NCBI GenBank assembly: GCA_024224155.1
Contig: JAAENP010000154.1
Span: 1-64,000, forward strand
Origin: a bacterium
Lineage (GTDB): Bacteria > Acidobacteriota > Thermoanaerobaculia > Multivoradales > JAHEKO01
Direction: 5' to 3'
DNA length: 64,000 nt
A program made the translations under genes and the position numbers. Within the stretch, counting starts at the first letter, position 1; each line of letters starts with the position of its first letter. The notes under the pieces were generated by a model, which saw only the letters and a program-made list of their open reading frames with translations, had not been told where the DNA came from and did not search any database. Below, piece by piece: positions 38,190 to 48,612 of this stretch.

Positions 38190-39359
38190 CTAGCGCTGCG
38201 GTGGCGCGGCGCCGGGCAGGTTCTTGAGCTCAGCTTCGATCTCGGCCTGCTCGTCCTTGATGCGCTGGATCTCCAGATTCTCGGCTTCGATCCTCTTGTT
38301 CTCCTCTTCGGTTTCCTTGTTCTTCCGTACGCGCGCGGCTCCGGCACTGTCACCGCCGCGGTTGTAGGCTGTGATGGCTCCGGCGAAGTTCTTCTGCTTT
38401 TCGTAGACGAAGCCGAGTTGCTTCCAGATGGTGGCCTGGTCTTGCGGCGATTGCGCGCGATCCAGGGAAGCACGTAGCGCGGACTCCGCCGAGCGGTATT
38501 GAGCCTTGGCCGTCAAGGCTTGACCCAGGTGATAGCCGGGGAGCCAGTCGTTCGAGTTCTTTGCTGCCGCCTGCTGGTAGGTCGAGACGGCTCCGTCGTA
38601 CTGTTTGGCGCCGAGCTGGGCACCACCCAGAAGCATGAGGTTGTCGAATGAGGGGTTGCCACTGACCACTCTCTGAGCCGCGACTGCGGCCTTTTGGTAC
38701 TGGTCCGCCTTTGCGGAACCGCGGGCGCGGCGAGCCTGACTGACGAGCGCTTGCGCGTAGACCTTTTGCTTTTCCATGTCGGATGGGTCGAGCTGTACGG
38801 CCTTGGCCAGCGCCGGGATGGCCGTGGTGGTGTCGCCGGTGCTGTAAGCGGTCGAGCCGTAGGAGAACCAGATGTCGGCATCGTTGGGGTTGGCGTTGGC
38901 GGCCTTGCGCAACTCGCCGACAGCCGACGCGGCCTGGCCGCTGTTGGTGAGGGCAACCGCCTTGAGCTGAGCCAAATAGCCCTGAGCGTTCTTGGGGAGC
39001 GAAGCCGCGTTGATCTTGCTCAGAAACGCCACGGCGTCACTGTGACGACCGGTTTGGACATAGGCTTCTCCCAGTCGGAGCTGGATGTTGGCGTCACTCG
39101 GTTGCAGGTCGTACGCCTTGCGCAGGCTCTGAACGGCCTCCTTGCCCTTGTTCTGCTTCAGCTTGGTCCAGCCGAGCATGAAGTGGCCTCCGAACCAGTC
39201 CGGTTGAGCGTCCACGATCGCCTGGAACTCGGCTTGCGCTACCGCCCAGTTTCCGGCCTTGAAGGCGGCCGTGCCCGAGGCCCAATCGGCTTGCGCGAGG
39301 CCGGCGGTCAGGACCATGGCGAGCACGGCGAAAACCGCCGTGAGGGTTGTACGTTTCAT
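38190..39359 (-). CDS. Periplasmic TPR protein of the TonB/ExbBD cluster
   Basis: This 389-residue protein has a clean signal peptide (residues 1-24, GLAQA end) and eight or more TPRs, for example AAFKAGNWAVAQAEFQAIVD and GGAQLGAKQYDGAVSTYQQA. A charged coiled coil (EEENKRIEAENLEIQRIKDE) precedes the end. The ATG at 39359 has GGAGAC upstream. It closes the exbB-exbD-exbD-tonB unit and ends at an intrinsic terminator. It may be a periplasmic adaptor for the TonB motor; that is inference from context. Confidence 0.85.
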   Translation of the reverse strand: MKRTTLTAVFAVLAMVLTAGLAQADWASGTAAFKAGNWAVAQAEFQAIVDAQPDWFGGHFMLGWTKLKQNKGKEAVQSLRKAYDLQPSDANIQLRLGEAYVQTGRHSDAVAFLSKINAASLPKNAQGYLAQLKAVALTNSGQAASAVGELRKAANANPNDADIWFSYGSTAYSTGDTTTAIPALAKAVQLDPSDMEKQKVYAQALVSQARRARGSAKADQYQKAAVAAQRVVSGNPSFDNLMLLGGAQLGAKQYDGAVSTYQQAAAKNSNDWLPGYHLGQALTAKAQYRSAESALRASLDRAQSPQDQATIWKQLGFVYEKQKNFAGAITAYNRGGDSAGAARVRKNKETEEENKRIEAENLEIQRIKDEQAEIEAELKNLPGAAPPQR

Positions 39360-39521
39360 TTCATGTCTCCTTTCGGTGTCCCACAAACTCTTCACGCGTG
39401 TTTGAGAGAGCAAGTGACGTGCCACTCCTGGACTTCCGTGCCTTCGAGCGGTCGTCGCCGATCGATGCCATATAGGCGGCGGGAGTATCCCACGAAACAA
39501 CCTCTCGTCTTAGCCGGGACC

Positions 39522-39543
39522 GACGTCCTCGCTGGCGGACGTC
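39522..39543. other. Inverted repeat between tonB and the TPR gene
   Basis: GACGTCC (39522-39528) and GGACGTC (39537-39543) pair perfectly around an 8-base loop. It lies in the 246-base gap after tonB, which otherwise holds only a ribosome site for the TPR gene. There is no T-run. It could be an mRNA-stabilising hairpin. Confidence 0.4.
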
Positions 39544-39605
39544 CCCCGAATGGCCCACCTGCGAGATCGGCCCTTGGCCGTGACCGCTCCTCGCTGGGCG
39601 AATGC

Positions 39606-40319
39606 TCACTGCAATTGGAAATTGACGGTGAGATTGTAGATCACCGCCACCGGCTTGCCGTTCAGGGTCGCAGGTTCGAACTTCCAGCGCTTGACGGCTT
39701 CGGCAGCCGCCTGGTCGAGCCCCATCGGCAGACCCTTGAGCACCTTGACGTTCGTTACATTGCCCTGCTTGTCGATAATGGCCTCGACGATGACCACGCC
39801 CGTGATACGAGCCTTGCGCGCGATCTCGGTGTACTGAGGCGAGGGGAAGATGATTTTCTTTGGAGGCTTCACATCGCCGCCCACGCGGATGGGACCGGTG
39901 GGTTCCATCGGCGGTGGGCCGTCGGGGATGCCCATGATGATGTCGGTGTCGGGCATCTCGACTTCGGGCTCGATATCTTCCTGCAGTCGCAGGGGCTCCG
40001 GCTCGTCCGGAGTCGGATCGGGGATCGGTACCTTCTTCGACTTCGGCTTCGGGATCTCTTGCTGCTGTTTGGGAGGCGGCGGCTTGAACCGGACCTGCTG
40101 AACGACGTAGACCTTGGCCTTCTTCTGCTCCCGCTCCGCTGCGACCATTTCCGGGAATTGGATGACGAAGAAGATGATGTGGAGAATAACCGCAACGATA
40201 CCGGCCCAACGCATTGTCTTGCGATCTTCGTCGTACTCCTGAGCGAAGGTGAGGAAATCACCAGCCGCCAGATCTGTTGATCGGTCGGGTTTGGGCTGGG
40301 TCTGTACTTCTTTCGCCAT
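39606..40319 (-). CDS. tonB: TonB-family energy transducer
   Basis: This 237-residue protein has an N-terminal cytosolic part (residues 1-36) and one membrane helix (37-57, AGIVAVILHIIFFVI). A Pro/Lys/Glu-rich periplasmic linker follows (FKPPPPKQQQEIPKPK and DPTPDEPEPLRL). The C-terminal TonB domain spans 150-237 (PQYTEIARKARITGVVIVEA, AVKRWKFEPATLNGKPV). It transmits energy from ExbBD to outer-membrane receptors. The cytosolic extension is longer than in E. coli TonB. Confidence 0.9.
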   Translation of the reverse strand: MAKEVQTQPKPDRSTDLAAGDFLTFAQEYDEDRKTMRWAGIVAVILHIIFFVIQFPEMVAAEREQKKAKVYVVQQVRFKPPPPKQQQEIPKPKSKKVPIPDPTPDEPEPLRLQEDIEPEVEMPDTDIIMGIPDGPPPMEPTGPIRVGGDVKPPKKIIFPSPQYTEIARKARITGVVIVEAIIDKQGNVTNVKVLKGLPMGLDQAAAEAVKRWKFEPATLNGKPVAVIYNLTVNFQLQ

Positions 40320-40328
40320 GGCGTGCTC

Positions 40329-40766
40329 CTAGAACCAGAACATTTCTACTTCGCGCTGCGTTGGAATCGAGATGTTTTCCACTTTCATCCCGATCTTGGC
40401 CTCCGCTTGGCGAAGCTCGTCAAAGACATCCACCATGTACCCATACTCGGTATTCTGCTGCGGGCGAATGATCACCGGCTTCTTCGGGTTGCGCTCGAGC
40501 TTCGGCTTGAGATAGTCGAGAATCTCGGAGAGCTGCATCGGCTTCTGATCGACGATGTAGACCCCACCGGCCTGGATGTCGATCAGCACGGCTTCCTCTT
40601 TCTCCACCATCGGAGGAGTGTCGTCCTCGGGCGGTAGCGAGAAGTCGAGGCCGCGGGTGGCTGCAAAAGTCGTCGTGACCATGAAGTAGATGATCAGCAG
40701 GAAGGCGATGTCCGCCATCGAGGAGGTGGGGATCTCGTCGCTGACTGCCGTTCTCTTGAGTTTCAT
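40329..40766 (-). CDS. exbD: ExbD/TolR-family proton channel subunit (second copy)
   Basis: This 145-residue protein has one membrane helix holding the essential Asp in PTSSMADIAFLLIIYFMV (D19 region), then a periplasmic domain. It differs in sequence from the first ExbD, so it is not a recent duplication. Two different ExbDs may form a hetero-oligomeric stator with ExbB. tonB starts 9 bp downstream. Confidence 0.9.
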   Translation of the reverse strand: MKLKRTAVSDEIPTSSMADIAFLLIIYFMVTTTFAATRGLDFSLPPEDDTPPMVEKEEAVLIDIQAGGVYIVDQKPMQLSEILDYLKPKLERNPKKPVIIRPQQNTEYGYMVDVFDELRQAEAKIGMKVENISIPTQREVEMFWF

Positions 40767-40769
40767 CTT

Positions 40770-41210
40770 CTAGCCTCCGGTCTCATCGGCGTCCACCGTT
40801 TCCTGATTCGACAGGAGATAGATGACTTGCGCCTTGGCCTGTTTGAGAGAGTCGATCACGCCGTCGACGTACTGATACGGAACTCCCTTGTCGGCTTTGA
40901 GCACGAACGGCTTGGAGGGATCGCTCTGAACAACGCCGGCGGCGAACGAAAGGACTTCGTCCGGTCCGGGCACGGGAACGCTGATTTCATCGCCGGCCGA
41001 AACTCGAATCTGCCCGTTCTCGGTGACCGAGACGTAGGCCGCCTGCTTGGGGATCTCGAGTCGAATGTCGGTCTCGGGAAGGGTCACCTGAGTCTTATCG
41101 ACCTCGAACGAGATCGTGACCATGAAGAAGATGATCAGCAGGAAAGCGATGTCCGCCATCGAGGCGGTGGGAATTCCTGTGTTTTGAACTGAACGGGCTT
41201 TGAGCCTCAT
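40770..41210 (-). CDS. exbD: ExbD/TolR-family proton channel subunit (first copy)
   Basis: This 146-residue protein has the ExbD membrane helix with the channel Asp (TASMADIAFLLIIFFMVTI) and a periplasmic domain ending in DADETGG. It follows exbB by 24 bp and is followed by a second exbD after 3 bp. Such tandem exbD genes are common in TonB clusters of Acidobacteriota and Bacteroidota-like groups. Confidence 0.9.
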   Translation of the reverse strand: MRLKARSVQNTGIPTASMADIAFLLIIFFMVTISFEVDKTQVTLPETDIRLEIPKQAAYVSVTENGQIRVSAGDEISVPVPGPDEVLSFAAGVVQSDPSKPFVLKADKGVPYQYVDGVIDSLKQAKAQVIYLLSNQETVDADETGG

Positions 41211-41234
41211 CGCGTTGTCCTATTGAAGTCTGCG

Positions 41235-41900
41235 TCAGCTCTTTGGCGACGGCGCGTCGCCGGCGATTCCGCTCCGCTTCATCTCGCCGAAGGTCTCGAT
41301 CAGCATGTTCGACGAGGTCTCGATGTCTCGAACGAATGTGTTGATCCGGCTCATGAAGAAGTTGTAGGCAAGCTGTGCCGGAATAGCCACGAACAGGCCC
41401 GCGGCGGTGGTGATCAGGGCCTCGGAAATACCCGCGGCGACCAGGCCGGGGTTCGACAAACCCGCTTCCGCGAGCGCCTCGAAGGACTTGATCATGCCGA
41501 CGACCGTGCCGAAGAAGCCGAGCAGTGGCGCGACGTTGGCGCTACTGGCCAGCCAGACCAGATTACGCTCGAGCCGGCCCATCTCGTAGAGGGCGGCGTT
41601 CTCGATCGTCTTCTCGACATCCTCGCGCGGCTGCCCGTACTTGAGGAGCCCAGCCTTGAGGATCGAAGCGACCGGGCCGCGATAGTCCTCGCAGACCTTG
41701 ATCGCGTTCTTGACCGAGCGATTGACGATCAGCTCTTTGCGAGTCTTGGCAAGAAACTCGTTGACGTTGATTCTCGCCCGCCTCAGTGCCAGCCAGCGCT
41801 CGATGATGAAAATCACCGAGAGAACCGAGAAGAGCAGAAGCGGCCACATGACAGGCCCACCGTCATTGAAGATCTTTACAAAAGTACCACCGTATTCCAC
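41235..41900 (-). CDS. exbB: ExbB/TolQ/MotA-family proton channel protein
   Basis: This 221-residue protein has three membrane helices: one near residues 15-32, and two in the second half around VAPLLGFFGTVVGMIKSFEAL and ALITTAAGLFVAIPAQLAYN. The last has the Thr/Ala-rich face of ExbB channels. It uses the proton gradient to drive TonB. The start is GTG with AGGAGG, a strong ribosome site. It is the first gene of the unit, with a long structured leader. Confidence 0.92.
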   Translation of the reverse strand: MEYGGTFVKIFNDGGPVMWPLLLFSVLSVIFIIERWLALRRARINVNEFLAKTRKELIVNRSVKNAIKVCEDYRGPVASILKAGLLKYGQPREDVEKTIENAALYEMGRLERNLVWLASSANVAPLLGFFGTVVGMIKSFEALAEAGLSNPGLVAAGISEALITTAAGLFVAIPAQLAYNFFMSRINTFVRDIETSSNMLIETFGEMKRSGIAGDAPSPKS

Positions 41901-41995: not shown

Positions 41996-42074
41996 CCAGA
42001 CGTCGCTCGGGGACGAAAAACCTGCATTCCGTGTGACTTATCGAACACTGTTGTCGCTCTTGAGGCGAGCGGCG

Positions 42075-42103
42075 ACAGTAGCACAACGTCTGGGTGAAAA
42101 CAA
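42075..42103 (-). promoter_or_regulatory. Promoter of the exbB unit
   Basis: On the minus strand TTGTTT (42098-42103) and TACTGT (42075-42080) are spaced 17 bp, and TGC just before the -10 gives an extended element. The predicted leader to the exbB GTG is about 165 nt. Confidence 0.5.
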
Positions 42104-42130
42104 GAAAAAGCCAATTGCCAGCAGGTTCCC

Positions 42131-42643
42131 TTAGCTCTGGATTCCAACGATCTCGTCGTGCCGGCTTCGATTGGCACAGCAGATGGCGACCGCCAGCGCA
42201 TCGGCGGCGTCGGCCGACGGGACTTCATTCCGAATCGACAGAATCTGACGCACCATTCGATTCACCTGAGCCTTGGTTGCCCGGCCGTAGCCCGAGACCG
42301 CACTCTTGACCTCGGTCGGAGAGTACTCGCGGATCTCGATGCTTCGCCGGGCGAGTGTGGCGAGCAACGCCCCGCGCGCTTGAGACAGGACGATCAGAGA
42401 ACGAGCGTTGAGACCCTGAAACGGGGTCTCGAGCGCTGCGCAGGCCGGCTCCAGGTCTTCGAGAAGAGTTTCGAGCTCGGTGGCAAGGCTGGCGAGGCGG
42501 GTGGCCAAGCCGGCCTTGGCGGGAGTGGAGAATCGGCCGAAACGCACCACTTGCAGATCGCCGCCGGTTTTGTCGATGATTCCGAAGCCCGTGTGCCGGC
42601 TGCCGGGGTCCAGGCCCAGGATTCGTGTCGAGGCCGTCGGCAA
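42131..42643 (-). CDS. ruvC: Holliday-junction endonuclease RuvC
   Basis: This 170-residue nuclease resolves Holliday junctions. The first active Asp is in ILGLDPGSRHTGFG (residues 8-21), the Glu in ALETPFQGLNARS near 72, and the last acidic pair in PSADAADALAVAICC near 148. The length is standard. It is 1 bp after yebC. ruvA and ruvB are not in the window. Confidence 0.95.
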   Translation of the reverse strand: MPTASTRILGLDPGSRHTGFGIIDKTGGDLQVVRFGRFSTPAKAGLATRLASLATELETLLEDLEPACAALETPFQGLNARSLIVLSQARGALLATLARRSIEIREYSPTEVKSAVSGYGRATKAQVNRMVRQILSIRNEVPSADAADALAVAICCANRSRHDEIVGIQS

Positions 42644-42644
42644 G

Positions 42645-43388
42645 TCAGTCCGCGTTCGCCATTGCGGCCTCGACGTTGATATTGGTCGAGACGTTCTGAA
42701 CGTCGTCCAGATCTTCCAGGGCCTCGATCAGCTTGAGCACCGTTTGCGCGTGATCTTCGCGGAGATCGACGATGGTTTGTGGAATCATCGATATCTCGCC
42801 GGCGGCGGGCTCGAGGCCTCGGGCGGCGAAGGCCTCTCGGACGCTGAGATAGCTTTCCGGAGTCGTGAAGATCTCATAGCCGTCCTCGTCGGAAGATAGA
42901 TCTTTCGCCTCGAGCTCCAGAGCCAGCTCCATGAACCGCTCTTCGCTCATCGAGCTTCGTTCGAAGGCGAGATAGCCGCGCTTGTCGAACATCCACGATA
43001 CGCAGCCGGTCTCTCCCATGCTGCCGCCGTGCTTGGAGAACTGATGCCGAATCTCCGCGACCGTGCGATTGCGATTGTCGGTCACGGCTTCCACGAGAAT
43101 CGCCGCCCCGCCGGGGCCGTAACCTTCATAGGAGATCTCCTCATAAGAGACCCCTTCCAGCTCTCCAGTGCCACGCTTGACGGCCCGGTCGATGTTGTCG
43201 CTGGGAACGTTGGCGCTCTTGGCCTCTTGCACGGCGACCCGCAGGCGGGAGTTGCCGTCCGGGTCCCCACCGCCCAATCTGGCAGCGACCGTGATCTCCT
43301 TGAGAAGTCTTGTCCAGAGCTGCCCACGGCGAGCGTCCGTGACAGCCTTCTTCCGCTTGATTTGAGCCCACTTGCTATGACCAGCCAT
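42645..43388 (-). CDS. YebC/PmpR-family protein (TACO1-like)
   Basis: This 247-residue protein starts with the family signature MAGHSKWAQIKRKKAVTDA and contains NVPSDNIDRAVKRGTGE and YEGYGPGGAAILVEAVTDN. Members were annotated as DNA-binding regulators; recent work links them to translation of proline-rich or stalling sequences. The yebC-ruvC order is widespread in bacteria. The kinase gene is divergent. Confidence 0.93.
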   Translation of the reverse strand: MAGHSKWAQIKRKKAVTDARRGQLWTRLLKEITVAARLGGGDPDGNSRLRVAVQEAKSANVPSDNIDRAVKRGTGELEGVSYEEISYEGYGPGGAAILVEAVTDNRNRTVAEIRHQFSKHGGSMGETGCVSWMFDKRGYLAFERSSMSEERFMELALELEAKDLSSDEDGYEIFTTPESYLSVREAFAARGLEPAAGEISMIPQTIVDLREDHAQTVLKLIEALEDLDDVQNVSTNINVEAAMANAD

Positions 43389-43475
43389 TCTTATTCTCCG
43401 GTGCGCGGTCGGTCGGTTCGCCCGAGACTTGCCAGGCGCAAGTGTAACGCGGTTGGCAAGGGTAGTTGGCCTCCA

Positions 43476-43506
43476 TTGACTCGGTCGACGGCGGCCTGCT
43501 AAGAAT
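43476..43506 (+). promoter_or_regulatory. Promoter of the receiver-kinase gene
   Basis: TTGACT (43476-43481) and TAAGAA (43500-43505) are spaced 18 bp with TGC just before the -10. Transcription would begin near 43512. That makes ATG 43516 rather than GTG 43510 a likely start and the leader nearly absent. Confidence 0.5.
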
Positions 43507-43509
43507 CCG

Positions 43510-46335
43510 GTGGTTATGATTGTGGTTCTGGTAGTTTCCAGTGAAGGGCGGATCAGCCGCCATGTTCGCAGCGTGCTCGGCTCCCAGGGCTGGTGGGTAA
43601 CTTCGGCCTCAGATCGAGAAGAGGCGCTGCGGGCGTCCGCGGATCATGAGCCGGCTCTAGTGATCGTGGACTGCGAGGTCGATGGTGCTACCGAGTTGGT
43701 TCGCACCTTCGGTGCAAGGAACGGCGGCCCGGGTGTGCTGCTCCTGGAACCGCAGGGCGACACCGACGGTGCGTTTCATGCCTTCGAAGCGGGGGCCGAT
43801 CAGATTCTGAGCAAACCCCCGCGCGCGCGGCAATTGCTCGAGGCCGCCGAGCGGGTCATGTCGCTGCCTCACCAGTCGGCCGGAGCGCTCGCCGCCGATA
43901 TGGGCGAGAAGCTCAGCGCCGCCGAGATCTTTGGCGAGGTGCTGATGGAACTCGACGCGACCGAATCCGGAACGGCGCCGGTTCGCGAGGCCGCCCTCGC
44001 CGAGCCCGCGTCCGGGCCCGAGCCCGAGCAGGAGATTCCGGCGCAATCTGAGGAGTCCGTCGAGGCCGAGTTGCCTCGAGATGAGGACGTGGTCGAGTTC
44101 TTCCGCGATCCGGGAAACGAGCCGGAAGAGCCGGCTGTCTTCGAGGAGCACGCCCCGAGGCTCGAAGGACCGGACCTTGCGGAAGTCGCTGAGGTCGCCG
44201 AGATGCCAGAGGCCGCCGAGGCCGATGTAGTGGAGGCACACGCAGAACCGGAGGCCCCAGAGCTCGCCGAGGCCGCCGAGGCCGATGAAGTGGAGGTACA
44301 GGCAGAACCGGAGGCGCCACAGGTCGCCGAGGCCGACGAGGCGGTAGGCCTCGAAGGACCGGACCTGGCAGAGGTCGCTGAGGTCGCCGAGATGGCAGAG
44401 GCCGCAGAGGTTGCCGAGGCCGATGAAGTGGAGGCACACGCGGGAACGGAGGCGCCAGAGCTCGCCGAGGCCGCCGAGGTGGAGGTGGAGGTGGAGGCGG
44501 AGGGAGAAGAAGACACCCGTACCGAGAGTGCTGAGCCTGAGGGTATCGAAGAAGAGATGCCGGCGACCGAGTCGTGGAAAGACATTGAATTGCCGGGCCC
44601 AGCCGAAGAAACCGGTGCCGACGAGGCTGTCGCGGCGTTTGCCTCACTGCCGGATCCCGAGGTCGTGCCGGAAGCGGCCGTCGAAGCTCTGGCCGTAGCC
44701 GGGACCGAACCGGAACCCGAAGTCGCTCACGTCCTCGGCGGCGCCGCCGCCAAGGTGGTCGAGTCGGAGGTCGGGGAGATCCGAGAGATTTCCTCGGCCA
44801 CATTCGACCCCACCGTTCTGGGCGCTGAAATCGACCGGATCGAGATGGAGTCAGAGTCAGGGGCAGCCGAGGAACCGGCTTCCGTCGACGAGGAGCCGGT
44901 CGCTCTGGCCGAGGCTCGGTTCTTTGAGGAGGTGAGCCCGGCCGAGGCAGAGGGAGAAGCTCTGGAAGAGGCCGGCGTGCATTCTCGGGCTGGCCTGGAG
45001 GAAGCCACGGGCACCGGCTCCGATTCGGAAGGGCCGCCAACGGTTTCGGAGGAGGAAGAGTTCTCGAAAGCGCCGGAGATCGCCCAGTTCGCGGATTTGG
45101 GTGAGCCGCTAGAGTCAGTGGAGCCACCCGAGGAAATCGAGCTGGCAGAGGTCGTCGAGCCAGCGCCATCCGAGGCGCAGCCGCCTGAACGTCATACCCC
45201 GGTCGAGGGAGACGAAGGCCGATTCGGCCAGTATCGGCTCGATGAGCGCATCGCGGTCGGCGGGATGGCCGAAGTCTGGCGAGCCAGCATGCTCGGAATG
45301 GAGGGATTCCGCAAGACCGTCGCGATCAAGAAGATCCTGCCTCACTTGGCGGAGAACAGCGACTTCGTCGCGATGTTCATCGAGGAGGCCAAGCTGGCGG
45401 CTCAGCTCAGTCACGAGAATCTGGTCGAAATCTACGATCTCGGCAAGATCGGCGAGAGCTTCTTCATCGCCATGGAATATGTCGACGGCAAGGACTTGCG
45501 GGCACTCATGAACCGACTGCAACGGAGCTCGGACCAGATGCCGATCGGCCTGGCATTGCTGATCGGGGCTGAGGTAGCCCGAGGCCTCGAGTACGCCCAT
45601 ACGCGTGAGGACAGCGAGGGCAGAGCTCTGGGGCTGGTCCACCGGGACGTCTCGCCGCGCAACGTGCTCATCGGGCTCGATGGTCGCGTGCGACTGTGCG
45701 ACTTCGGCGTCGCGAAGGCCGTGTCCTCGGTGATTCAGACCCAGATCGGCGCGCTCAAGGGCAAGCTGCAGTACATGTCTCCAGAGCAGGCCTCCGGCCG
45801 GTCCGTCGACAATCGCAGCGACATCTACTCGCTCGGTAGCGTCATGTACGAAATGATCACGGCCCGCCGTCTGTACGAGGCGGACAATGAGATATCGCTC
45901 CTCGACGCTGTCCGGGCCGGCAATTTCGACGACCCGCGCAAGCATTGTCCCGGGCTGCCGCAGGAGGTGAGGCGGATTCTGATCAAGGCACTCGCCAAGA
46001 AGCCGTCCGCCCGCTACCAGCACGCGGGGGTCCTCGAGCAGGACTTGCGAGATCTTCTGCGGACTCTCGAGCCCGCCCCGGGCGAGCAGACCCTGAGCGC
46101 CTTTGTCAGAGAGCTGCTGGCGGAGCCTGTGGCGGCTCAGGCGCCCGCCGACGATGGTGGAACTGTTGCCTCGGCGATTTCATCGGCGCTCGAAGAACCG
46201 GACGCCGCGACCCGCAGCTTTCAGACGCATGGGCCCTTGACCGGCAGCAAGGTGGCTCGCTTTTGGTGGGGAGTGGCCGCCGGTCTGCTCGCAGCGGGAG
46301 TGGTGGCGACTCTGCTCAAGCTCCTCCTGAGCTAG
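43510..46335 (+). CDS. Ser/Thr protein kinase with degenerate receiver domain and long acidic repeat linker
   Basis: This protein has 941 residues. Residues 1-118 are receiver-like: D54 (LVIVDCEVDG) and K102 (ILSKPP) remain, but the usual acidic pair is replaced by SSE and the switch Thr is missing. Residues 120-570 are a disordered Glu/Ala/Pro/Val linker with a 63-residue repeat. The kinase follows at about 578-845: RIAVGGMAEVW loop, VAIKK, VHRDVSPRNVL, DFGVAKA, and MSPEQASG. One membrane helix closes the protein (about 916-938), leaving almost nothing outside. So it is a tail-anchored cytosolic kinase. Its substrates are unknown. Confidence 0.9.
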   Translation: MVMIVVLVVSSEGRISRHVRSVLGSQGWWVTSASDREEALRASADHEPALVIVDCEVDGATELVRTFGARNGGPGVLLLEPQGDTDGAFHAFEAGADQILSKPPRARQLLEAAERVMSLPHQSAGALAADMGEKLSAAEIFGEVLMELDATESGTAPVREAALAEPASGPEPEQEIPAQSEESVEAELPRDEDVVEFFRDPGNEPEEPAVFEEHAPRLEGPDLAEVAEVAEMPEAAEADVVEAHAEPEAPELAEAAEADEVEVQAEPEAPQVAEADEAVGLEGPDLAEVAEVAEMAEAAEVAEADEVEAHAGTEAPELAEAAEVEVEVEAEGEEDTRTESAEPEGIEEEMPATESWKDIELPGPAEETGADEAVAAFASLPDPEVVPEAAVEALAVAGTEPEPEVAHVLGGAAAKVVESEVGEIREISSATFDPTVLGAEIDRIEMESESGAAEEPASVDEEPVALAEARFFEEVSPAEAEGEALEEAGVHSRAGLEEATGTGSDSEGPPTVSEEEEFSKAPEIAQFADLGEPLESVEPPEEIELAEVVEPAPSEAQPPERHTPVEGDEGRFGQYRLDERIAVGGMAEVWRASMLGMEGFRKTVAIKKILPHLAENSDFVAMFIEEAKLAAQLSHENLVEIYDLGKIGESFFIAMEYVDGKDLRALMNRLQRSSDQMPIGLALLIGAEVARGLEYAHTREDSEGRALGLVHRDVSPRNVLIGLDGRVRLCDFGVAKAVSSVIQTQIGALKGKLQYMSPEQASGRSVDNRSDIYSLGSVMYEMITARRLYEADNEISLLDAVRAGNFDDPRKHCPGLPQEVRRILIKALAKKPSARYQHAGVLEQDLRDLLRTLEPAPGEQTLSAFVRELLAEPVAAQAPADDGGTVASAISSALEEPDAATRSFQTHGPLTGSKVARFWWGVAAGLLAAGVVATLLKLLLS
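44161..44460 (+). repeat. In-frame duplicated block encoding acidic Glu/Ala linker
   Basis: A block starting CTCGAAGGACCGGACC at 44161 recurs at 44350, an offset of 189 bp (63 codons). Shorter GCCGAGGCCG units recur inside it. The protein text repeats LEGPDLAEVAEVAEM and EADEVEAHA-type units. This is an internal coding repeat, not a mobile element. Confidence 0.8.
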
Positions 46336-46389
46336 CGGCGCGGACCTCTGCTTCCCGGCCCTGGTGAAGCGCGAAGACCGTTTGCCGTT

Positions 46390-46398
46390 TGCTAGAGT
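46390..46398 (+). promoter_or_regulatory. Possible extended -10 before accD (TGCTAGAGT)
   Basis: TGC then TAGAGT lies 17 bp before the accD ATG, which would give a very short leader. No -35 is clear. Confidence 0.35.
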
Positions 46399-46414
46399 GC
46401 GATCGTCTTTCGCC

Positions 46415-47269
46415 ATGGCCTGGTTCCGAAAATCTAAGAAGCCCCGCAGCGCGACCTCGGAGCGACCGCGTAGCTCGGTGCCCGAAGGGCTCTGGGTAAG
46501 GTGTTCCGGCTGCCGGGAGATCATCTACTCGAAAGAACTGGATCGCAACCAGCAGATCTGCCCGAAGTGCGGTTATCACTTCCGCATCGGCAGCCGAGCC
46601 AGGATCCGCCTGCTGCTCGACGAGGACGATCCTCGCGAGTTGTTTCATGGCCTGCTACCGGCCGATCCGCTCAAGTTCAAAGATCGTAAGAGCTATCGAG
46701 ATCGGGTCAGGGACTACACCAAGACGAGCGGTGAGGAAGAGGCGGTGATCGTGGTCGAAGGGCATCTCGACGGTGTTCCGGCGATCGTCGCTGTAATGGA
46801 GTACTCATTCATGGGCGGCTCGATGGGATCGGTGGTGGGCGAGAAGATTACCCGCGCGGCCGAAGAAGCGGCGCGCAAGAAGTGCGGGCTGATCGTGGTC
46901 TCCGCTTCAGGTGGTGCTCGAATGCAGGAGGGCGTCGTGTCTCTCATGCAAATGGCCAAGATCTCGGCGTCGCTTGCCCGGCTGCGCGAGAGCAGCTTGC
47001 CGTTTCTGTCGGTCTTGACCGATCCCACGACCGGAGGGGTCACGGCTTCCTTCGGGATGTTGGGAGATCTGAATATCGCCGAACCGGGGGCTCTGATCGG
47101 CTTCGCCGGGCCGCGCGTGATCGAGCAGACAATCCGAGAGAATCTGCCCGAGGACTTTCAAACCAGCGAGTTTCTCCTCGAGCACGGATTCCTTGACATG
47201 GTCGTAAAGCGTCCCGAGCTCAAGCAGACTCTGGCTACCTGTTTGCGCCATCTGGGCCAAAGGGCGTGA
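46415..47269 (+). CDS. accD: Acetyl-CoA carboxylase carboxyltransferase subunit beta
   Basis: This 284-residue subunit joins AccA to move CO2 from biotin to acetyl-CoA in fatty-acid synthesis. The four-Cys zinc ribbon is C30-x2-C33 and C49-x2-C52. The carboxyltransferase core has YSFMGGSMGSVVGEKI and SASGGARMQEGVVSLMQM. TDPTTGGVTASFGMLGD and GFAGPRVIEQTI follow. The ATG at 46415 is used. folC overlaps the stop, and accD-folC is a common pair. Confidence 0.95.
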   Translation: MAWFRKSKKPRSATSERPRSSVPEGLWVRCSGCREIIYSKELDRNQQICPKCGYHFRIGSRARIRLLLDEDDPRELFHGLLPADPLKFKDRKSYRDRVRDYTKTSGEEEAVIVVEGHLDGVPAIVAVMEYSFMGGSMGSVVGEKITRAAEEAARKKCGLIVVSASGGARMQEGVVSLMQMAKISASLARLRESSLPFLSVLTDPTTGGVTASFGMLGDLNIAEPGALIGFAGPRVIEQTIRENLPEDFQTSEFLLEHGFLDMVVKRPELKQTLATCLRHLGQRA

Positions 47270-48612
47270 GCGCGTCCAGCGACGCCGAACCGCTGCCGGT
47301 GCTCGACCCGGACCGGATTCTCGAGACGCTCGAAAGCTGGGGGGCCCGTCTCGAGCTCGACCGGGTGAAGCGGTTGCTCGAGCATTTCGATTCCCCTCAG
47401 GAATCGTACGCCACGGTTCTCATAGCCGGGACCAACGGCAAGGGCTCGACCGCCGCGTTGCTGTCTTCGATGGTGGCGGCAGCGGGCTATCGGACCGGCC
47501 TTTTCACATCACCTCATCTCGAAGGAGTAGAGGAGCGTCTTCGAATCGATGGATCCGCGGTGGGCCGAGTCGAGTTGGGCGGACTACTTCAAAGGTTCCT
47601 TGATCGGGCCAAAGCCGCCGGTCTGGAGCCGCCGACGTACTTCGAGGCTCTCACCGTAGCCGCCTGCTTGTGGTTCGCGCGCTCAGACGCCGAGCTTGCG
47701 GTTTTCGAGGTCGGTATGGGAGGGCGTCTGGATGCGACCAATACCTGCTCGCCGGTACTCTCGTTGGTGTCCGAGATCGGTCTCGATCACGTCAAACCGC
47801 TGGGTGACTCTCTCGGAGAGATCGCCAGAGAAAAGGCGGGGATCTTCCGCCCGGGCGGGGTCGCGATCAGCGCCGCCAGCGAGCCCGAGGCCCGGCGCGC
47901 GCTTCGAGCTCACGCGACCGAAATCGGGGCGAACCTGTGCGAGCTCTCGGAATGGGTACAGCGAACCACGGTCGAAGAGGGGCCGACCTCACAGCGAGTG
48001 CGAGTCCAAACCGCGATCCGTGACTACGAGCTCGAGCTCCGGCTGCCCGGGGCACACCAGATTCGAAACCTGTTGCTGGCACTGGCCGCGGCCGAACGCC
48101 TGGCCGGGATGGGCTGGCACGATCTCGACCGCCGCGCAATCGAGCTCGGAGTCCGTAACTGCCTCTGGCCCGGGCGTCTCGAACGAGTCGAGCTGCCCGA
48201 TGGAAAGAACGTCTGGCTGGACGTAGCCCACAATCCTCAGGGCGCCGAATCGCTGGCGCGCTTTCTGAGCGCTCATCTGGCGGATTACGACTTGCTCTTC
48301 GGAATCCTGGAGGACAAGGACGCTCGGCAAGTGCTCGCTGCGGTCGCGCCCGGGGCCGCGCGAATCACCCTCACGCGCCCACCCAGTGACCGGGCATTGA
48401 ATCCGAACGACTTGGCTGCGTGGCTTTCCGGCCCGCGGATCGAAGTCGAGCCCGAACTGGAGTCGGCTCTGGACACGGCTCTCGAAGGAGAGCGACCCCT
48501 CTTGGTCTGTGGCTCCCTCTATCTGGTGGGTTGGGTCCGAGCGGCGCTTCGCAAAAGGTTCGGGGTACCGGCGCCTGCCGCGGATTTGGTTGCCGGACCC
48601 GGCGCGGCCTAG
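47266..48612 (+). CDS. folC: Folylpolyglutamate/dihydrofolate synthase
   Basis: This 448-residue Mur-ligase-fold enzyme adds glutamate to folates. The P-loop is [16 protein letters not shown] (near residue 50), and [28 protein letters not shown] and the Mur-type [11 protein letters not shown] near 320 are present. The start is GTG, overlapping the accD stop. The stop overlaps that of convergent glyA by 4 bp. Confidence 0.94.

Follow-up and report, generated by a model that had tools for sequence, protein, structure and literature searches.

Receivers that lack key phosphotransfer residues are defined as pseudo-receivers in a 2025 review, which calls their mechanism a mystery (PMC12632262), and in Myxococcus FrzS such a domain is reported to serve as a protein docking surface (PMC12632262, PMC1974792). 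An SHLS motif of TonB and TolA is reported to be essential for contact with the stator (PMC8928145), and Myxococcus GltG, which has an FHA and a TonB domain, is reported to bind the ExbB/TolQ-like protein AglR by two-hybrid assay (PMC3169522). Neither a Ser/Thr kinase with a TonB domain nor the family described here was found in the literature searched, with preprints and most subscription papers lying outside that search.

The gene under study lies in a window of 64,000 nucleotides (the whole stretch of DNA that was analyzed) from an acidobacterial genome. Its product is predicted, with very little room for doubt, to have a degenerate receiver in front, then an acidic, disordered linker, a PknB-like kinase and, at the extreme C terminus, a transmembrane (TM) helix; ORF, Pfam and structure model analyses thus confirmed the receiver-linker-kinase-TM architecture of the original prediction. 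The AlphaFold model shows the receiver fold and the kinase, and its C-terminal helix (residues 912-940), which ends the protein, was confident (pLDDT about 90). The alignment feeding this full-length model had one row (L012) out of frame, and a second structure model covered residues 1-162 only. The open reading frame begins with GTG at 43510; an ATG at 43516, two codons further on, fits the starts of the relatives better and is the likelier start. An Rfam scan of 42000-48000 gave no match. The features of the locus are as follows.

39606-40319, reverse strand: tonB, whose TM helix contains a His (Pfam TonB_C, 84.8 bits)
40329-40766, reverse strand: exbD-type gene 1 (Pfam ExbD)
40770-41210, reverse strand: exbD-type gene 2 (Pfam ExbD)
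41235-41900, reverse strand: exbB-type gene (Pfam MotA_ExbB)
42131-42643, reverse strand: ruvC, conserved neighbour
42645-43388, reverse strand: yebC, divergent conserved neighbour
43510-46335, forward strand: pseudo-receiver / FGD-motif / Ser-Thr kinase / TM protein, 941 aa, GTG at 43510
43525-43848, forward strand: pseudo-receiver domain, residues 6-113 (Pfam Response_reg, fold model and PDB matches)
43906-43959, forward strand: helix with the FGD motif EKLSAAEIFGEVLMELDA, residues 133-150, more conserved than any other part except the kinase
43960-45207, forward strand: disordered acidic linker, residues 151-566, variable in length and charge
44209-44422, forward strand: short tandem repeats within the linker
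45220-46119, forward strand: PknB-like Ser/Thr kinase domain with C-terminal extension, residues 571-870
46258-46329, forward strand: single C-terminal TM helix (predicted), residues 917-940
46364-47269, forward strand: accD-type gene, conserved downstream (Pfam Carboxyl_trans and Zn_ribbon_ACC)
47266-48612, forward strand: Mur ligase family gene, conserved downstream, which we take to be folC

The kinase domain was matched by Pfam Pkinase at residues 579-844 (121.7 bits), and its four catalytic residues (K607, D713, N718 and D731) are intact, as expected of a Hanks-type (PknB-like) Ser/Thr kinase; T744 lies in the activation loop. The catalytic Lys, HRD Asp, loop Asn, DFG Asp and activation-loop Thr were present in all 59 family kinases that could be counted and placed on the kinase tree (59 of 61 members). 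The closest solved structures by sequence were PknB, PknA and StkP. Assignment to the PknB/PASTA kinases was not supported, the NCBIfam model PknB_PASTA_kin scoring 265 bits (cut-off 450), and no PASTA domain was detected in the Pfam scan of the protein. Judged by these residues, the protein is an active-looking membrane Ser/Thr kinase. Its domain order differs from the kinase-first order that had been said to be commoner in bacteria, a statement borne out by 49 of 68 other kinases, in which no more than 80 residues separate the start of the frame from the kinase.

Orthologues were detected in 35 of 59 close relatives (own genome included) at 229 bits or more, separated by a gap from other kinases, which score 176 bits with 36% identity, and extended to other classes of Acidobacteriota. 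The family set comprised 61 members, namely 43 ORFs and 18 found through the FGD motif (see below) in other classes of the phylum. Among the 43 ORFs, 34 gave an alignable N-terminal module (L015 partly cut), one had both parts separated (L126), six were cut at the 5' end, one had a masked N terminus (L103) and one (L111) differed in its N terminus, which matched neither receiver nor motif; among the 20 loci fetched for the motif elsewhere in the phylum, L172 was cut off ahead of its kinase. The window protein carries four marks of the family: pseudo-receiver, FGD motif, kinase of the subfamily and TM helix. By contrast, none of the 68 kinases outside the closest set (L021-L088), gathered by six short peptide patterns and speaking for that set only, matched the FGD model (E 10) or TonB_C (1e-3), and a single one (L080) matched the N-module model, behind its kinase. 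The architecture is widespread in the phylum, which is one half of what the original prediction had named as counting against it, but no published function was found for it in the literature searched.

Directly after the receiver lies a conserved helix, KLTSEDIFGDLLAE, which is unique in the window's genome. The consensus of this FGD motif is KLTSEDIFGDLLAExE; one Phe was invariant in 34 of 34 sequences. The motif occurs once in the window's genome (E 2.3e-9, the next place at E 0.217) and was found in 47 of 297 genomes of the phylum at E <= 0.001. It was helical in both structure models (137-151 or 137-152), at low confidence. By sequence comparison it is the conserved element outside the kinase, persisting where the kinase or the TonB_C arm is missing, and we infer that it is a docking helix. 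Two members (L107 and L110) have two tandem copies of the motif about 24 residues apart. One member lacks the kinase: L174 (3809-7090) carries a receiver (63 bits), the FGD motif, about 600 acidic residues (net charge -217), a TM helix and TonB_C, which shows that the scaffold can exist without a kinase. A further protein (L178:2374-4491) has the kinase first, then the motif and then a TM helix, which could be a chance match; it has neither receiver nor TonB_C and was left out of the family.

TonB_C was detected in 19 of 39 C-terminal tails by Pfam and in 34 of 61 members by a model built from the family tails; neither search detected it in the window protein. In the relatives that bear it, the TM helix is followed by a predicted periplasmic coiled coil and then TonB_C. 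Of the members without it, some end in a coiled coil, and 13 members end within 60 residues past the TM helix. Presence and absence of TonB_C require six changes on the 59-kinase tree. Four short members make up the window's clade, which is fully supported and nested among TonB_C-bearing members, and the short Holophagae-type members group separately from it. Occurrence of TonB_C on both sides of the drawn (midpoint) root suggests that the domain is ancestral, and the tree indicates that it was lost in the window's clade. Because this short clade nests among TonB_C-bearing members, the tail anchor of the window protein is the remainder after loss of the periplasmic part; accD starts 28 bases past the stop codon, so that no space is left for any remnant of it. 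The C-terminal helix claimed in the original prediction is therefore present, but a tail anchor is not the architecture of the family. Taken together, these comparisons lead us to favour, by somewhat better than even chances, a membrane signalling kinase in which the pseudo-receiver and FGD helix dock partners, the spacer varies and a passive arm, where present, senses the envelope.

The neighbourhood of the gene was compared across the order, in which the kinase gene, accD and folC face yebC-ruvC-exbB-exbD-exbD-tonB-TPR. The TPR-tonB-exbD-exbD-exbB cluster occupies 38190-41900 of the window (reverse strand), has two different exbD genes and is found order-wide beside ruvC-yebC. Downstream accD was present in 21 of 21 order loci with contigs long enough (20 genomes), and in 17 of 20 exbB was found on the upstream side, at a distance of up to about 6 kb; the other three (L127, L129 and L133) keep accD and showed no exbB within the stretch fetched. 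These locus counts slightly exceed genome counts, as L009, L091 and L136 are one genome and other pairs likewise. Outside the order, the whole arrangement was seen at two loci (L183 and L184), accD with folC at two (L171 and L177) and folC only at four; ten loci had no accD, folC or exb genes, and the Holophagae-type members had none of these neighbours.

This conserved position opposite tonB-exbD-exbD-exbB speaks in favour of a different account, in which the adjacent ExbB-ExbD would drive the TonB_C-bearing relatives and couple proton-motive force or mechanical load to the kinase, with the coupling lost in the window protein; the reported binding of GltG to AglR (PMC3169522) is consistent with it. 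However, ruvC, yebC, accD and folC also stand in the locus, so linkage need not be functional, and the Holophagae-type members exist without it. A His in the TM core, moreover, was found in none of the 34 TonB_C-bearing members and not in the window protein, whereas all 11 neighbouring TonBs have it, as does the window TonB; the underlying TM table took in 56 of 61 members. One hydrophobic-segment pick (L198) sits outside the expected place. The kinase family thus lacks the His/SHLS feature of the TM helix that marks TonB energy transducers, and we regard motor coupling as unlikely. Since the His is missing from these 34 members and present in the neighbouring TonBs, the arm is better read as passive and is probably not motor-driven, an indirect argument in that the kinase could meet ExbB in another way. 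The window's genome has 22 matches to TonB-dependent receptors (21 over the cut-off), so possible ligands for such an arm exist.

An alternative of lower probability places the function in the acidic linker, as an electrostatic tether, a calcium or polycation binder or a condensate-forming hub, with the kinase riding along. Residues 126-565 of the window protein are 26% Glu and 19% Ala, with a net charge of -119, and the linker itself has -113 over 405 residues; pLDDT was below 50 across 151-606 except at residue 401, a run that includes the start of the kinase domain. The linkers of L090, L109, L115 and L116 are also very acidic, and that of the kinase-less L174 is extreme (-217 over 602 residues). 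On the other hand, linkers across the family range in length from 50 to 602 aa and in net charge per 100 residues from -36 to +8, the majority being near-neutral, Pro/Ala-rich and as short as 50 residues. Even within the window's genus, linkers of 332 and 156 aa were found in sister species against the 405 of the window protein, the shortest with -14 net charge per 100. The tandem repeats are real but short and local: a 60-bp unit in 2.2 copies (44209-44342), which is a local expansion, and 9/18/27-bp units (44366-44422) together account for about 70 residues of a linker of 416, the remainder being low-complexity. We therefore rejected the acidic linker as a conserved feature. With such variation among the closest relatives, linker-specific electrostatics are unlikely to be the function of the family, and the tether or hub put forward in the original prediction is not supported; we infer a variable spacer instead.

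Still less probable is that the window protein is a decaying copy that is losing its arm and function. TonB_C is gone from the window's clade, and several relatives in the window's family are without this gene. Yet the catalytic residues are all intact, the kinase is 90% and 84% identical to those of its two genus relatives, conservation within the genus extends to receiver and motif, and Holophagae-type genomes also hold stable TonB_C-less members.

The N-terminal domain (residues 6-113) was recognized by Pfam Response_reg (34.1 bits, cut-off 30.2), was modelled as a (beta-alpha)5 fold (pLDDT about 90, model of residues 1-162), and had receivers as its best PDB matches by Foldseek. Pfam recognized 26 of 34 N-modules of the family as receivers. 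At the active-site positions, the window protein reads S-S at the acidic pair, D54 at the phospho-Asp, Q at the switch and K102 at the Lys, with D54 and K102 at the positions originally given; it lacks the full set (acidic pair, phospho-Asp, Ser/Thr switch and Lys) of a phosphorylatable receiver and has the profile and fold of one, as expected of a pseudo-receiver. In an alignment of 52 of the 61 members with eight ordinary receivers from the window's genome, no member had all five residues together. The second residue of the acidic pair was retained in two of the 52, the phospho-Asp in 17 (replaced in 35) and the Lys in 29. This alignment was least secure at the switch-Thr column. A normal active site was thus not encountered, and the early view of a degenerate receiver holds family-wide: by alignment, the domain is a pseudo-receiver throughout, and the D54 of the window's genus is no family trait. 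That D54 is still phosphorylated, giving the Ser/Thr kinase a true two-component input, is scarcely credible. D54 and K102 are present in all three genus members, which speaks for it; their acidic pairs, however, read S/S or S/G, neither Ser nor Thr stands at their switch, 35 of the 52 aligned members have another residue in place of the phospho-Asp, and metal binding is linked to the acidic pair (PMC12632262). A docking role, as originally suggested, is the best guess for this domain. The original prediction identified the parts correctly, but gave too much weight to a linker and tail anchor that comparison shows to be variable and derived, respectively, and missed the FGD helix, the TonB_C arm and the conserved locus.

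In the signalling kinase that we favour, the protein would be anchored in the inner membrane with its kinase in the cytoplasm (predicted topology). The ancestral protein would have had, behind its pseudo-receiver and FGD helix, a variable spacer and a PknB-like kinase, with a TM helix leading on to a periplasmic coiled coil and TonB_C. A partner or substrate may dock on the pseudo-receiver and FGD helix without phosphotransfer, and the kinase may be turned on by clustering and autophosphorylation of the invariant activation-loop Thr (T744 in the window protein). In the TonB_C-bearing relatives, clustering would be set by passive binding of the arm to an envelope ligand, candidates for which are a TonB-dependent receptor, peptidoglycan or another envelope protein. 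As the arm is gone in the window's genus, input there would have to enter by way of the cytoplasmic docking module or from a partner in the membrane.

Other cytoplasmic heads were found on TonB_C arms. Outside the window, a pseudokinase-linker-TM-coiled coil-TonB_C protein adjoins mltG (L191:1092-3407; 44591-46906 of contig C515 of the same genome). In the family, mltG adjoins it in 11 of 11 copies, and the catalytic Lys, HRD Asp and DFG Asp are kept in none of the 11. Among the 18 genomes of the window's family, strong pseudokinase matches were found in four whose receiver-kinase is without TonB_C and in seven where no receiver-kinase was found; no pseudokinase was found in six whose receiver-kinase has, or probably has, TonB_C (the copy of G012, cut at a contig end, being counted as probable), and G006 had neither gene. 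A transfer of TonB_C to the separate pseudokinase gene was refuted as a rule, since 23 of the 26 order genomes carry a pseudokinase-TM-TonB_C protein, and many of these encode a TonB_C-bearing receiver-kinase as well. A tree joining the two kinds of head, on a branch of 3.7 changes per column, is only suggestive. DUF4388-TM-TonB_C proteins were also seen in relatives (L208, L211, L212 and L213; four scanned). By their domain content, these several heads support a wider theme and do not prove a common function. We put forward tentatively, as a possibility below even chances, that Acidobacteriota use TonB_C as a general non-energized sensory arm under interchangeable cytoplasmic heads (pseudo-receiver kinase, order-wide mltG-side pseudokinase, DUF4388 protein and kinase-less pseudo-receiver), with the window protein as an arm-less member. 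If true, such proteins would form a class of transmembrane signalling receptors built on a single helix, by which TonB-dependent receptors or the cell wall are sensed directly.

Were the TonB_C arms sensory and not motor-driven, signals from the outer membrane or cell wall would reach Ser/Thr phosphorylation directly in a phylum abundant in soil, a route that differs from the FecA-FecR relay and from the PASTA kinases. The window's clade, in which the arm was lost and the rest of gene and locus kept, provides a natural deletion for comparison, and the FGD helix is a concrete bait for the partner of the pseudo-receiver.

Compared to known systems, the TonB_C-bearing orthologues resemble GltG, a gliding machinery protein, in having a cytoplasmic signalling domain, a TM helix and a C-terminal TonB_C (PMC3169522), but differ in the kinase and pseudo-receiver head and the missing TM His, and the window protein is without TonB_C; what GltG has in common with the kinase family is the domain logic only. 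With the TonB/TolA energy transducers, the relatives share the TonB_C fold and the neighbouring tonB-exbBD locus; they differ by the kinase head and by having no TM His/SHLS, and the window protein has no periplasmic domain at all. The pseudo-receiver is like that of FrzS in having a receiver fold without phosphotransfer residues, but stands at the front of a membrane Ser/Thr kinase, with the conserved FGD helix behind it. Finally, the PknB/StkP-type kinases are alike in kinase sequence and in the one TM helix after the kinase; the window protein differs from them by having no PASTA domains and a long N-terminal pseudo-receiver and linker, and its relatives carry TonB_C where those kinases have PASTA.
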